From Candidatus Poribacteria bacterium (GTDB lineage: Bacteria; Poribacteria; WGA-4E; WGA-3G), in the NCBI GenBank assembly GCA_021295735.1, contig JAGWBU010000005.1:1-64000 (forward strand): a stretch of 64,000 nt of DNA, given 5' to 3'. Position 1 is the first letter of the stretch, and each line of letters starts with the position of its first letter. The notes beneath the pieces are model-generated. The model was given only the letters and a program-made list of their open reading frames with translations, was not told the DNA's origin and searched no databases. Position numbers and translations under genes: made by a program. Below are positions 28,822-36,182 of this stretch, in pieces.

Positions 28822-29829
28822 TTACATTTTGGCAGCAGGTTCTTGTACTGTTTCAAGGAGGCGTTCAATAACTATATCGGTATCAACCCCTTCAGCCTCA
28901 GCATGAAAGTTTGTCAGCACGCGATGTCGTAGCACTGCCGGCGCTACTGCTTTAACATCTTCACACGAAGCGTTGTAACGTCCTCTGAGAATAGCTCTGG
29001 CTTTCGCACCTAATATCAGATACTGACCTGCACGCGGACCTGCCCCCCATCGCACCCACTGTTGAATAAAGTCAGGTGCATCCTTTTCTTTAGGACGGGT
29101 TGCCCGAGCCAGTTTTACGGCGTATTGTACAACGTTATCTGCTGCAGGCACTCTGCGAACGATTTGGTGCAACGCAACAATGGCTTCACCTGAAAGTGCT
29201 GTATCTAATTCTGGTTCTTCGGCGCCTGTTGTCGCAGAAATGATATTAACTTCCTCTTCCTCTGCTGGATAGTCTATAACGATTTTGAACATGAACCTGT
29301 CAAGCTGTGCTTCTGGCAACGGGTATGTGCCTTCCTGCTCAATTGGATTCTGTGTAGCAAGCACAAAGAAGGGTTCAGTCAATTCGTATTCGTTACCACC
29401 AGCAGTAACATGGTATTCCTGCATTGCTTCCAGAAGCGCAGCTTGTGTCTTCGGCGGCGTTCGGTTAATCTCATCGGCAAGAAGGATATTCGCGAAGATA
29501 GGCCCTTGAATGAACCGAATCGTCCTATGTCCTGTAGTGCGATCCTCCTCAAGCACATCGGTACCGATAATATCAGCGGGCATCAAATCAGGTGTGAACT
29601 GAATTCGTTTAAATTTGAGATTGAGGATCTCAGCGAGTGTTTTGATCATCAACGTTTTCGCTAATCCCGGCACACCTTCGACAAGGCAATGCCCACCGGC
29701 AAAGAGTGCCATCAACATCTGATTGATCACTTCCTCCTGGCCGATAATAACTTTTTTCAACTGCTCCACAATTGATTCTTGGCTTTTCATTAACTCTTCA
29801 ATAGCTTGGACTTCTTCAGTTGCTGGCAT
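28822..29829 (-). CDS. MoxR family AAA+ ATPase
   Basis: A 335-residue AAA+ ATPase. Walker A is GVPGLAKT (52-59) and Walker B LLADE (116-120). [17 protein letters not shown] and the sensor-1 segment [22 protein letters not shown] are textbook MoxR. MoxR proteins act as chaperones that mature or insert metal cofactors or remodel envelope complexes, usually with VWA/DUF58 and transglutaminase partners. Here a DUF3857/transglutaminase protein is encoded 77 bases upstream, but no DUF58 or VWA gene is seen. AAGGAG precedes the ATG. Confidence 0.9.
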
Positions 29830-29906: not shown

Positions 29907-32831
29907 CTACGGTTTTTGAGTTAAGATAAATCGTTTTGTGCTTTGGCTTGAAGCAATTCTAATAACATTCGTGAGATTAGAGATTTTGGTGGCTTCCACC
30001 TTTGGCGCGTGGAAACGAATTCTCTGTCTCATCTCTGCTTTCTGTCCAGATTTTGTATAATCCAAGTGGATTTCAGCGACATCTGTTTGGAGTTTTTGTG
30101 GCTCCGGTATCATCTCTATGACAAATGGTGCCTCCGCATCAACAGTGATTTGGTCTTCAAAAGTAAGTGCCTTCCCAAGAACAGCCGGATGGTCGCGTTC
30201 CTCGTCTCTTAACAATTCGGCATACGGATGTTCAGCAACAGGCAGTTCCAAAATGAATTGGTCGCCCATTTTGTATAGGTATTCCTTACATGACCACGTT
30301 AGGTTAATTTTTAATTCAGGTCCCAGTTGTTTTGTTTCCGAAATTTCAAAATGTTCCACTTTGGCACGTTCGTCCAATTCTAAAGTACTACGAAGAAATC
30401 GGATTCGTTCTTCACGATGGTCAACACCTAAAAGCCTCGCTCGCAATCTTGCGTTGAAATCTCCAGAAACCCGCAGTTCCTGCGTAACCTCTACACTCAA
30501 ATCCTTTTTGACTTTGACATGAATTGCAGTCCGCCTCACATTTGAATCTGCTGGGAGCGCAGGACTCTTTTGAAAAGCATAAAGGAGGCTTTTCACTTTT
30601 TCTCCGTCAAGTTTTTCCTGATCCTGGATAGATGTGTCTGCGGCATCTACACTAATTCCGTCCTTTGTTGGTGCATCGGTATTAATAATCAGGGTCCATC
30701 GATTTTGGTCACTGGCAGGAAAATCGCCAAAAGCACATGTTTGGGCGGTCGGGTCAAGCCATATTAAATCGTTATCTTTCCCGCCATCTACTGCAAGAAT
30801 CATGTGATTAAAATATGCAAGCGATGGAACTTCTGGGACAATTTCACTCGCCTTGCCAGCGGAGATAAGAACCGGGTAAGAATCAATTCCAGCGACACGC
30901 AGCATCGTTGAAAGTAGCGTTGATTTGCCTTTACAATCTCCCCATTCACCCTCTAATACTTTGGCGGCAGGATACGGTTTGATACCCCATATCCCACGCT
31001 CATCTCCCGCGTACTTGATGGTTGTCGCAACAAATTCATAGAGCCTCTTGATTTTTTCCTGACGTGACAATGCCCCGGTGAGTATCTCTTTCGTTTTTTC
31101 CTCAATTTCCTTCGTAATTCTATCCTGTTCACGAATTAATGTCGCGTACCACGTGATCAATTTATCCCATGAATCAATTGAGGAGAGGCTAATGTTATAA
31201 GCAAAATCCGAAACAGCAGGCATCAAAGGTTCGCGACGTAAGGCTGGCACATCTTTCGTTTCAAATGTATAGGTGCGACTATAGTTGTTTTCAGTGACAG
31301 TTGGCTCGATTGAAGGCCCATCTACTTGGTAAAATAGCGGTTTTTTCTTCGGAATATGTGTCGTAAGACGGTAATATTGGACAGGCACATCAACCTGAAA
31401 ATAGACTTGCCGCCAAAATTCGCCCTTCATGGCACTTCGCGGGTTTCTGGTAGAATAGGCGTAGTCAATGATACAACCGTCGGATATCTTCGGTAATTCA
31501 AAATACATCAAACGGGTATTAACGTTCAGTCCTGCTTCAGCAGCAGCAGCTGGTGTAATCCCGCGAACGATTTTACGTTCCTCCAATTCCCCTTGAGTAC
31601 CATCAGGTTTAAGTGTTCGCGCATGATGGATAGTAACATCATCCGCATCCTGTGTATAAGGAATCCGAATTTCACCGAAATGATACCCATCTTCATTGAA
31701 TATTTTGACGACTCGTCGTGTAGAATAAACACGCCTGCCATCCTCATCAATGTCATGTACTTCTGCTTCCCACAGCACAACAGCACTGTCCTCAAGGTTT
31801 CCTGGTTCGGCAAGAGCGTTTTCAATGCTCTTTTGTATAGCTTGTTCGTCTGCCTCGCTAATAAAATTATACGGCAGTGACGATTTCCCTTTCATTTCTA
31901 CCTGTTCTTTTTCCTCTTCCTCTGGAGGGTCCTCGCCATGGACATGACCATTGTCCTGTGTATGCGGAGCCAGTGATTCGTCTTGTTCTTCTTGCGGGTT
32001 TTCTACAGCACTTTGCTCTTTTGGCGGTAGAGGTGTGCGCCGTGTTCCTAAAAATGTCTTATCAGTGAGTGTTCCTTCACCATTTGCTTCTAAATCCTTA
32101 CGCGAGGCACGACCATCACCGTTATCATCAAGATGAGGATGTTCTGCTTGCATTGCGCCATCTTGTGCATACCATTCGTCAACGCGAGTTTGCATCCAGA
32201 GAAATGCCTCTAAAAGTGATATTGCTCCATCGTCGTTTGTATCTGCAGATGATTCAGAGAAGGCATCAACAAAGATATCACCGAAACCAGCTTGAGAGGC
32301 ATAACCTTCACGTGAAGAACTTGATGTAATAATTATGCGTCCTGATTTGCTGATTTTTTGGACTATCCCTGCACTATATGGAAACCCAAAGACGAGTAGC
32401 TGCTGTTCAGCGCGAATGCTGTTGATACTGTCAGTATATTCTTGTTGGCTGATATCGCGTCCTGGTAAATTAAATTTTATACCGGATGGGCTGCGCGTTG
32501 CGTGTCCAATCATGAAGAGGATAAACCTGTCTGATGGTTGAACCTTTTCAGCAAGCTGGGCAAATGCCTCTAAAACCGGTTCTCGCTTTACCTCACCCGT
32601 GACGAGACCCGGGAGCGTGCCTTCATCCTCAAAAAGGAAGGTAATCTGCTCTGGGGCAAATCCGTATTCTTGTGTAAGCAACTGGTGGAATCGTGAAGTC
32701 GCACTCCAAAATTGGTCATAGTAGGATTTCTCACCGCCAACGCCACCGAGAATTAGAACATAATCTGTTGCAAAAACTGTTGTGGAAACCGATAGAAAAA
32801 CAGCAAGGATTGCTATGATAATTCGACGCAT
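29907..32831 (-). CDS. pseudo-caspase/EF-hand/DUF3857/transglutaminase fusion protein
   Basis: A 974-residue exported protein with a signal peptide (about 1-21). Residues about 22-190 look like a caspase/legumain-type fold: DYVLILGG, then the His site IGHATRS (H110), then LLVFGFPYSAG, which stands where caspases have DSCxSG, so the catalytic Cys appears replaced (P151). Two EF-hand-like loops follow, DTNDDGAISLLE (197-208) and DDNGDGRASRKD (235-246), then an acidic linker. DUF3857 spans about 350-560. A transglutaminase domain keeps C633, H676 and D693 (GDCKGKS, FNHM, LDPT). It is the first gene of the seven-gene run, so the linked ATPase MoxR is a likely partner. Pseudo-caspase assignment is by motif alignment only. 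Confidence 0.7.
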   Translation of the reverse strand: MRRIIIAILAVFLSVSTTVFATDYVLILGGVGGEKSYYDQFWSATSRFHQLLTQEYGFAPEQITFLFEDEGTLPGLVTGEVKREPVLEAFAQLAEKVQPSDRFILFMIGHATRSPSGIKFNLPGRDISQQEYTDSINSIRAEQQLLVFGFPYSAGIVQKISKSGRIIITSSSSREGYASQAGFGDIFVDAFSESSADTNDDGAISLLEAFLWMQTRVDEWYAQDGAMQAEHPHLDDNGDGRASRKDLEANGEGTLTDKTFLGTRRTPLPPKEQSAVENPQEEQDESLAPHTQDNGHVHGEDPPEEEEKEQVEMKGKSSLPYNFISEADEQAIQKSIENALAEPGNLEDSAVVLWEAEVHDIDEDGRRVYSTRRVVKIFNEDGYHFGEIRIPYTQDADDVTIHHARTLKPDGTQGELEERKIVRGITPAAAAEAGLNVNTRLMYFELPKISDGCIIDYAYSTRNPRSAMKGEFWRQVYFQVDVPVQYYRLTTHIPKKKPLFYQVDGPSIEPTVTENNYSRTYTFETKDVPALRREPLMPAVSDFAYNISLSSIDSWDKLITWYATLIREQDRITKEIEEKTKEILTGALSRQEKIKRLYEFVATTIKYAGDERGIWGIKPYPAAKVLEGEWGDCKGKSTLLSTMLRVAGIDSYPVLISAGKASEIVPEVPSLAYFNHMILAVDGGKDNDLIWLDPTAQTCAFGDFPASDQNRWTLIINTDAPTKDGISVDAADTSIQDQEKLDGEKVKSLLYAFQKSPALPADSNVRRTAIHVKVKKDLSVEVTQELRVSGDFNARLRARLLGVDHREERIRFLRSTLELDERAKVEHFEISETKQLGPELKINLTWSCKEYLYKMGDQFILELPVAEHPYAELLRDEERDHPAVLGKALTFEDQITVDAEAPFVIEMIPEPQKLQTDVAEIHLDYTKSGQKAEMRQRIRFHAPKVEATKISNLTNVIRIASSQSTKRFILTQKP

Positions 32832-35168: not shown

Positions 35169-36116
35169 TTACTCGCTGCCGTTGTTCATGCCCAAAATGT
35201 GAGTGAACGCCTCAAAGTTCTCTGCGCGTAAAGCTTCGTTATGCAACTCTTGAAGTCGTTCAAGATCCTTGATGTTTTCCAATTCGGGTCTAAGCACTTG
35301 AACGTCGCGCCCAGCAAACCGAAACTCAAGCACCGCAAAGAGATCTCTAATAGTACTTTGTCGTGCCCCTCGTTGATAATACTCTTCTCCCGCCGTTTCT
35401 ACGAGATGTTGATATACTGAAGATTCTTGCACGATTCCCTCCTTTATAAAATCTGCAATTGCTTGATGCGGGTGAATTAAACCACTCATCACCCACTGTG
35501 ATACGAGAAGATTACTCCGAATATCTGTGGGCAACGAGAGTGTCTTTGTCCTTTCGTTACATTGAATTGCCCATTGGAGCCGTTCCATGCCAACCGGTGG
35601 CTGCATCAGCGGCGCGAACGGCATAAGCCCAGCATTTTGTTCATCAAAAACAGATTGCCCATCAAGTTGAATGAGACGAATCACTTTGTACTCAACAATG
35701 AACCGGTAATTAGGCACGTCTTGCCTGTAACCACCTGGATCATTCTGCCCGGCATTGGAGCGGAGATAAATTACGTGAGAAAAGATAGGCAAGCCGTATC
35801 TTTCATAACATCTACCGAGATAACCTACGTTGCGGCGCGCCATTTCAAGATCGGTGCTGTCGCCAACTTGAAACTCAATATGCACCAAGACCAATTCATC
35901 ACCCAGTAGCACCTTTATAAGATTATCTGTCCGGCGAACTTCTACTGTCGTCAATTCACCTTCAACAAATTCTATAAACTCAAAATCGGATCGTTCCAAG
36001 ACGGTCTGCAGGATGTCTTTAGGGAATTTCTGTAAAGTATCTTTAGTTACAATATCATATCTACCGTGCGGCAGTGATGCAAAGTCTGAATCAGGCTGCT
36101 CTCTTACGTAGATCAT
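35169..36116 (-). CDS. Rpn-like PD-(D/E)XK nuclease family protein
   Basis: A 315-residue protein from the ATG at 36116; a TTG at 36152 is an alternative start. It begins YDIVTKDTLQKFPKDIL, then RRTDNLIKVLLGDELVLVHIEFQVG (about residues 63-87), where the Asp and the IEFQ hydrophobic-Glu-x-Gln stretch are the catalytic pair of the Rpn/DUF4351-type PD-(D/E)XK fold. ARRNVGYLGRCYERY and the C-terminal FADFIKEG-like helices fit the same group. Members are recombination-promoting or transposase-like nucleases, typically in mobile or multi-copy families. Nearby genes give no further clue. Confidence 0.55.
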   Translation of the reverse strand: MIYVREQPDSDFASLPHGRYDIVTKDTLQKFPKDILQTVLERSDFEFIEFVEGELTTVEVRRTDNLIKVLLGDELVLVHIEFQVGDSTDLEMARRNVGYLGRCYERYGLPIFSHVIYLRSNAGQNDPGGYRQDVPNYRFIVEYKVIRLIQLDGQSVFDEQNAGLMPFAPLMQPPVGMERLQWAIQCNERTKTLSLPTDIRSNLLVSQWVMSGLIHPHQAIADFIKEGIVQESSVYQHLVETAGEEYYQRGARQSTIRDLFAVLEFRFAGRDVQVLRPELENIKDLERLQELHNEALRAENFEAFTHILGMNNGSE

Positions 36117-36182
36117 ATCAATATTGTACTCTATTCTGCCGTTGAATATCAACCTTCTTTACAGTGCACCTATTCTGAAGAA

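Follow-up and report, generated by a model that had tools for sequence, protein, structure and literature searches.

A predicted exported pseudo-caspase/legumain domain fused to a DUF3857-transglutaminase half in Poribacteria

The gene analysed here lies in a stretch of 64,000 nucleotides of contig JAGWBU010000005.1 from a Candidatus Poribacteria bacterium (assembly GCA_021295735.1; hereafter the window) and encodes a protein in which a caspase/legumain-like domain carries proline in place of the catalytic cysteine and is joined to a transglutaminase (TG)-fold half with a complete catalytic triad. Among the related genomes, the full architecture is a largely single-copy orthologue across the Poribacteria order, which, taken together with the invariant GH, S153, QxEHP and TG triad, rules out a chance pattern. 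Strong selection on the dead part and its frequent MoxR neighbour suggest that its role is probably one of binding or control.

The open reading frame is present in the window DNA as a preliminary description had given it (29907-32831, minus strand, ATG start, 974 aa), and the residue numbers reported there proved correct throughout (G109-H110, P151 within F150-P-Y-S-A154, loops at 197-208 and 235-246, C633, H676 and D693). The features of the gene and of its neighbour are as follows.

29907-32831, minus strand: whole gene, in the order signal peptide, pseudo-C13/C14 domain, linker, DUF3857, transglutaminase fold, C-terminal domain
32769-32831, minus strand: putative Sec-type signal peptide, residues 1-21 (MRRIIIAILAVFLSVSTTVFA), read directly from the sequence
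32058-32768, minus strand: predicted clan-CD (legumain/caspase-like) pseudo-peptidase domain with calcium-type loops, residues 22-258 (AlphaFold2, Foldseek, profile against PDB)
32502-32504, minus strand: His110 of the G-H motif, equivalent of the catalytic His, aligned to the GH of metacaspases
32373-32384, minus strand: F150-P151-Y152-S153, with Pro in the catalytic Cys column according to alignments to intact relatives
32208-32243, minus strand: EF-hand-type 12-residue loop 1, residues 197-208 (DTNDDGAISLLE), from the loop pattern
32136-32150, minus strand: QAEHP, residues 228-232, from the alignment of 57 rows
32094-32129, minus strand: second DxNxDG loop (loop 2), residues 235-246 (DDNGDGRASRKD), from the same alignment
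31797-32057, minus strand: acidic/His-rich low-complexity linker, residues 259-345, the fastest-changing part of the protein
31242-31742, minus strand: DUF3857, residues 364-530 (Pfam E 4.3e-31; fold of 3kd4)
30747-31094, minus strand: transglutaminase-fold domain, residues 580-695 (Pfam E 1.5e-7)
30933-30935, 30804-30806 and 30753-30755, minus strand: codons of the TG triad Cys633, His676 and Asp693
29910-30671, minus strand: beta-rich C-terminal domain, residues 721-974, also matched in 3kd4
28822-29829, minus strand: MoxR AAA+ ATPase gene, 77 bp downstream of the fusion gene (Pfam AAA_3 E 1.6e-63)

By its predicted signal peptide, the protein is exported from the Poribacteria cell, and sequence comparison located an A-x-A-type site at the end of the hydrophobic stretch in orthologues as well (e.g. 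TTFA/ADY). Conservation was read from an alignment of 57 rows, comprising the window protein and 56 orthologues.

A predicted clan-CD fold and its nucleophile position

With the single sequence, Pfam returned nothing above cut-off in residues 1-360; the best member was C13 at an E-value of 0.0012, C14 (p20) was not listed for the window sequence, and searches of PDB and NCBIfam were uninformative. A nine-sequence profile run against PDB sequences matched metacaspase-4 (E 2e-5), the GH motifs of both falling on each other, and hhalign against the intact Poribacteria caspase L082 gave an E-value of 3.7e-9. An AlphaFold2 model of residues 21-258, built from 39 sequences, reached a pLDDT of 82.3 and a pTM of 0.85, and Foldseek ranked human legumain (4n6o) first in the PDB for this predicted domain (E 3.1e-8, TMq 0.68), with yeast metacaspase Yca1 at E 1.9e-7. 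The caspase/legumain-type fold suggested in the preliminary description is borne out by the PDB profile, hhalign and the predicted structure, and the check by structure prediction and Foldseek proposed there places the predicted fold in clan CD and not apart from the caspases. Pseudo-caspase is an apt name, with the modelled fold lying slightly nearer to legumain (C13) than to caspases (C14). The protein also has the make-up of a pseudo-orthocaspase, in that one dyad residue of its p20-like domain is replaced and p10 is missing, the remaining chain being DUF3857-TG.

The loss of the nucleophile is documented by alignments to intact relatives. In hhalign, G-F-P-Y-S-A falls without gaps on D-A-C-H-S-G of L082 (LDACHSGG), and HMM alignments place the Cys of EACRSG (L090), of EACYSG (L089) and of SACYSGG in an annotated C13 peptidase on the Pro151 column, again gap-free. 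In the AlphaFold2 model, Pro151 lies after strand 123-129 and before helix 133-140, the place of the clan-CD nucleophile, and H110 comes after strand 82-88 (domain numbering, to which 20 is to be added). Given these alignments and the positions of Pro and His in the predicted model, the claim that Cys was replaced by Pro while the His was kept is right, and the 57 rows agree with it: the nucleophile column holds Pro in 51 rows, Gln in six and Cys in none, and G109-H110 is invariant (57/57), so that the catalytic His after strand 3 is in place and the catalytic Cys after strand 4 of an active clan-CD peptidase is absent. The residues S153, Q228, E230, H231 and P232 are likewise invariant (57/57 each). 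A catalytic Cys at a shifted position is rejected, since residues 21-258 of the window protein are free of Cys and the few Cys of the orthologue domains in the 57 rows are scattered, away from the nucleophile column and not conserved.

The domain could still be an enzyme if His110 worked with another nucleophile, for example Ser153, and both residues are not only invariant in the order but also present in a relative from Gemmatirosa (see below). However, the nucleophile column is occupied by Pro, Gln or Ser, and S153 corresponds to the Ser of the C-x-S-G motif, which intact relatives possess besides their Cys; its conservation is thus inherited and structural, and we consider residual catalysis by this domain very unlikely.

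For residues 21-196, dN/dS was 0.00-0.12 in seven of eight pairs, with most values at 0.03-0.12, and 0.38 in the remaining one, a pair with low dS. These values resemble those of the TG domain and lie below the linker (up to 0.43) in most pairs, which shows that the dead domain is maintained by selection. A decaying remnant without a role would account for the loss of the catalytic Cys, but is rejected by the low, TG-like dN/dS; the QxEHP motif is moreover invariant and family-specific, and the pseudo-domain retains 39-93% identity across the order (75-93% at the closest loci), making decay the least probable of the readings weighed here. A tree of the pseudo-domain, which bears on whether the Cys was lost once, was not resolved at its base and gave no placement to the Gemmatirosa and C13 rows. 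A second Poribacteria family of about 541-556 aa (L080 1094-2716, G000:C128; L084, L087, L098) has a caspase-like domain devoid of GH and the Cys motif, with IVDGYANE at the nucleophile site.

Calcium-type loops and the transglutaminase half

Two EF-hand loops had been described as following the caspase part. Both loops exist, but loop 1 is located inside the predicted fold, between its last two helices. Loop 1 fits the EF-type 12-residue pattern in 53 of the 57 rows. In loop 2, DxNxDG is kept in most rows, the acid at position 12 occurs in fewer than half, and the loop is complete under the strict pattern in only 19/57. The Pfam EF-hand match stayed below cut-off (EF-hand_5, 14.6 bits vs 25.9), and paired helix-loop-helix EF-hands were not found in the AlphaFold2 model, which has one exiting helix and no complete second hand. 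It is likely that the protein binds calcium.

It had further been proposed that the dead protease is calcium-gated, i.e. that a change in the pseudo-caspase domain, caused by Ca2+ at the two loops, switches the TG half on or off. The canonical loop 1, the widespread DxNxDG of loop 2 and the presence of both loops in Gemmatirosa are compatible with such a switch. However, equivalents of loop 1 occur in the catalytically intact Poribacteria caspases L081, L082 (ADANMDGFVTVTEA), L085 and L094 (ADANGDGIITFTEV), which have no TG domain. Loop 1 is therefore characteristic of this branch of the fold rather than an addition made to serve the TG half. Since loop 2 is in addition mostly without the position-12 acid, and the remote orthologues L150, L151 and L153 lack both loops while otherwise keeping the fusion, calcium gating is unsupported. 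A marine periplasmic or extracellular protein would presumably also meet near-constant millimolar calcium. We consider the switch unlikely, and a structural role of calcium more likely than gating.

Both domains of the C-terminal half exceeded their Pfam cut-offs, as expected from the preliminary description: DUF3857 (PF12969) scored 108.7 bits vs 24.6, and Transglut_core scored 32.1 bits vs 23 over residues 580-651 (E 1.5e-7). The Cys633-His676-Asp693 triad, which assigns the protein to the transglutaminase-like superfamily and had been called complete, is invariant in all 57 rows. A model of residues 345-974 (pLDDT 79) matched 3kd4 over nearly its full length (E 1.7e-33, TMt 0.80), and the sequence profile did so at E 2.3e-5. 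The TG-fold half may be a peptidase or, equally possible, an acyl transferase, a choice that the sequence cannot decide. In the open-licence literature searched, with subscription papers outside its scope, no function of DUF3857-transglutaminase proteins was reported; none of its papers names both DUF3857 and transglutaminase, and a single one mentions DUF3857. Almost all of the related genomes searched contain a DUF3857-TG paralogue; one of these paralogues (G000:C224, L048) has the same DUF3857-TG half with an N-terminal TPR-like region in place of the pseudo-caspase domain.

Gene neighbourhood and a relative outside the phylum

The fusion gene and MoxR make up a two-gene unit in families f1 and f3. 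In f1, the gene order MoaC, fusion gene, MoxR and glycosyltransferase is kept, with a gap of 77 bp to MoxR. In the f3 genomes L151 and L153, MoxR follows 9-10 bp after the fusion gene and the flanking genes differ from those of f1. In f4 and f8, and in the f3 genus g9, MoxR does not adjoin the fusion gene, so the pairing is not universal. Where they are neighbours, the fusion gene and MoxR are probably co-transcribed. Given that the MoxR family is cytosolic and the fusion protein has a signal peptide, contact between the two would be indirect or run via membrane partners; none were found beside the fusion gene. There was also no vWA gene among the scanned neighbours, and the locus accordingly does not have the composition of a MoxR-vWA ternary conflict system. 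A role in anti-phage defence was rejected, as the fusion had no PADLOC match and MoxR just a weak DolB match, and a viral or mobile origin was rejected because no relative turned up in two scans of viral contigs. Elsewhere on the contig, a DUF4159 gene (G000:C192:74285-74914) lies past the window, about 42 kb away and not in the run of the fusion gene. Within the window, positions 35169-36152 hold a 327-aa ORF with no Pfam match that is variably present between the TrxR and FGGY genes in relatives, and which we take to be possibly a PD-(D/E)XK transposase-like (Rpn-type) gene.

A tblastn search of plasmids returned one relative outside the phylum, in Gemmatirosa kalamazoonensis (Gemmatimonadota; E 7e-13), which keeps GH, the S153 equivalent, Q-x-E-H and both loops and has Ser in the nucleophile column. 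It stands in a gene run of vWA-type, pseudo-C13, TPR-like, DUF4159 and MoxR genes, the TPR-like call being read from the sequence with no Pfam match. The pseudo-C13 gene (L158 about 17880, NZ_CP007129.1) shows an apparent frame change near residue 60, which may be a sequencing error or a real frameshift.

Many Poribacteria genomes come from sponge symbionts, and an exported protein with a legumain-like fold could conceivably be a secreted decoy against the caspases or legumain of the sponge host. This is highly improbable in our view: orthologues occur in remote Poribacteria lineages, the domain has its relative in Gemmatirosa kalamazoonensis, for which no sponge host is known, and the domain is joined to an enzyme half and encoded beside a MoxR ATPase gene. 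The occurrence of the domain near MoxR in two phyla, along with published MoxR-DUF58-transglutaminase operons (PMC8430577), rather indicates an envelope MoxR system. With one outside locus behind it, this indication is a lead and not proof.

Proposed role and comparison with known systems

We propose that the protein is an exported pseudo-C13/C14 binding module on a TG-fold enzyme that works with MoxR in an envelope system, a reading to which we assign a roughly even chance of being correct. The N-terminal domain lacks the Cys nucleophile but retains its fold, its His and a pocket region in which GH, S153 and QxEHP are conserved; it would bind a peptide or protein and serve in sensing or targeting, and calcium at one or two loops would stabilise it. 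Through the flexible linker, it would be tethered to the DUF3857-TG half with its complete triad, which would perform the chemistry, as peptidase or by acyl transfer, on a putative envelope substrate. The dead domain would steer the attached enzyme, and the pair may work with the neighbouring MoxR in an envelope assembly or stress system, on the pattern of other MoxR-transglutaminase operons. Control of the TG half by the dead domain is plausible, in view of the single chain, the conservation and the low dN/dS. More tentatively, and with rather less confidence than in the Poribacteria case, we suggest that, in two or more phyla, an exported pseudo-legumain family acts as the ligand sensor of envelope MoxR systems, being fused in Poribacteria to the TG enzyme that it controls. 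The signature proposed for such a family is GH...[P/Q/S]-x-S...Q-x-E-H-x-x-[LI]-D-D-x-G-D-G.

Little is understood of bacterial pseudo-proteases, and the pseudo-orthocaspases published so far mostly differ in type and lineage from the one described here. A dead state held across an order, an intact enzyme on the same chain and frequent pairing with MoxR offer a testable case of control by a dead peptidase, and possibly a clue to what DUF3857-transglutaminase proteins do. For the pseudo-domain, the H/P dyad or the fusion, no description was found in the open-licence literature searched.

With legumain and the C13 family of clan CD, the domain shares the fold, the His after strand 3 and the nucleophile position after strand 4, but it has Pro or Gln for Cys, no propeptide, calcium-type loops, the DUF3857-TG fusion and a Pfam C13 match below cut-off. 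The structure 3kd4 (BDI_1141, Parabacteroides), the only solved DUF3857-transglutaminase structure matched, corresponds to the whole C-terminal half, with DUF3857, the TG fold and the C-terminal domain. In contrast to the Poribacteria protein with its intact triad, it comprises 505 residues, has no caspase-like domain and aligns a Pro with the catalytic Cys of the TG triad. The solved member is thus degenerate and may itself be a pseudo-enzyme.

In the MoxR-DUF58-transglutaminase operons, e.g. the bifidobacterial PFNA cluster (PMC8430577), a MoxR gene also lies near a transglutaminase-fold gene, whereas no DUF58 or vWA gene adjoins the Poribacteria pair, whose TG is part of a soluble exported fusion and not a membrane protein. 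MoxR-vWA ternary conflict systems use inactive caspase effectors and, rarely, TG-like peptidases (PMC7159879); an inactive caspase domain is linked with MoxR in both cases, but the Poribacteria fusion is predicted to be exported, has no adjoining vWA partner and gave no PADLOC match. According to Klemencic et al. 2019 (PMC6426788), 8.6% of bacterial caspase homologues are pseudo-orthocaspases; Alphaproteobacteria and Cyanobacteria account for 90% of these, and Y/S is the commonest substitution. Neither Poribacteria nor transglutaminase is mentioned in that paper. Like the domain described here, pseudo-orthocaspases have a caspase fold without the His-Cys dyad that is retained in lineages (PMC6426788), but the Poribacteria domain keeps the His and loses the Cys alone (H/P or H/Q). 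Pseudo-orthocaspases (PMC6426788) and inactive caspases in MoxR-vWA systems (PMC7159879) are known kinds, and against the open-licence literature searched the H/P dyad and the fusion to a transglutaminase appear to be new.
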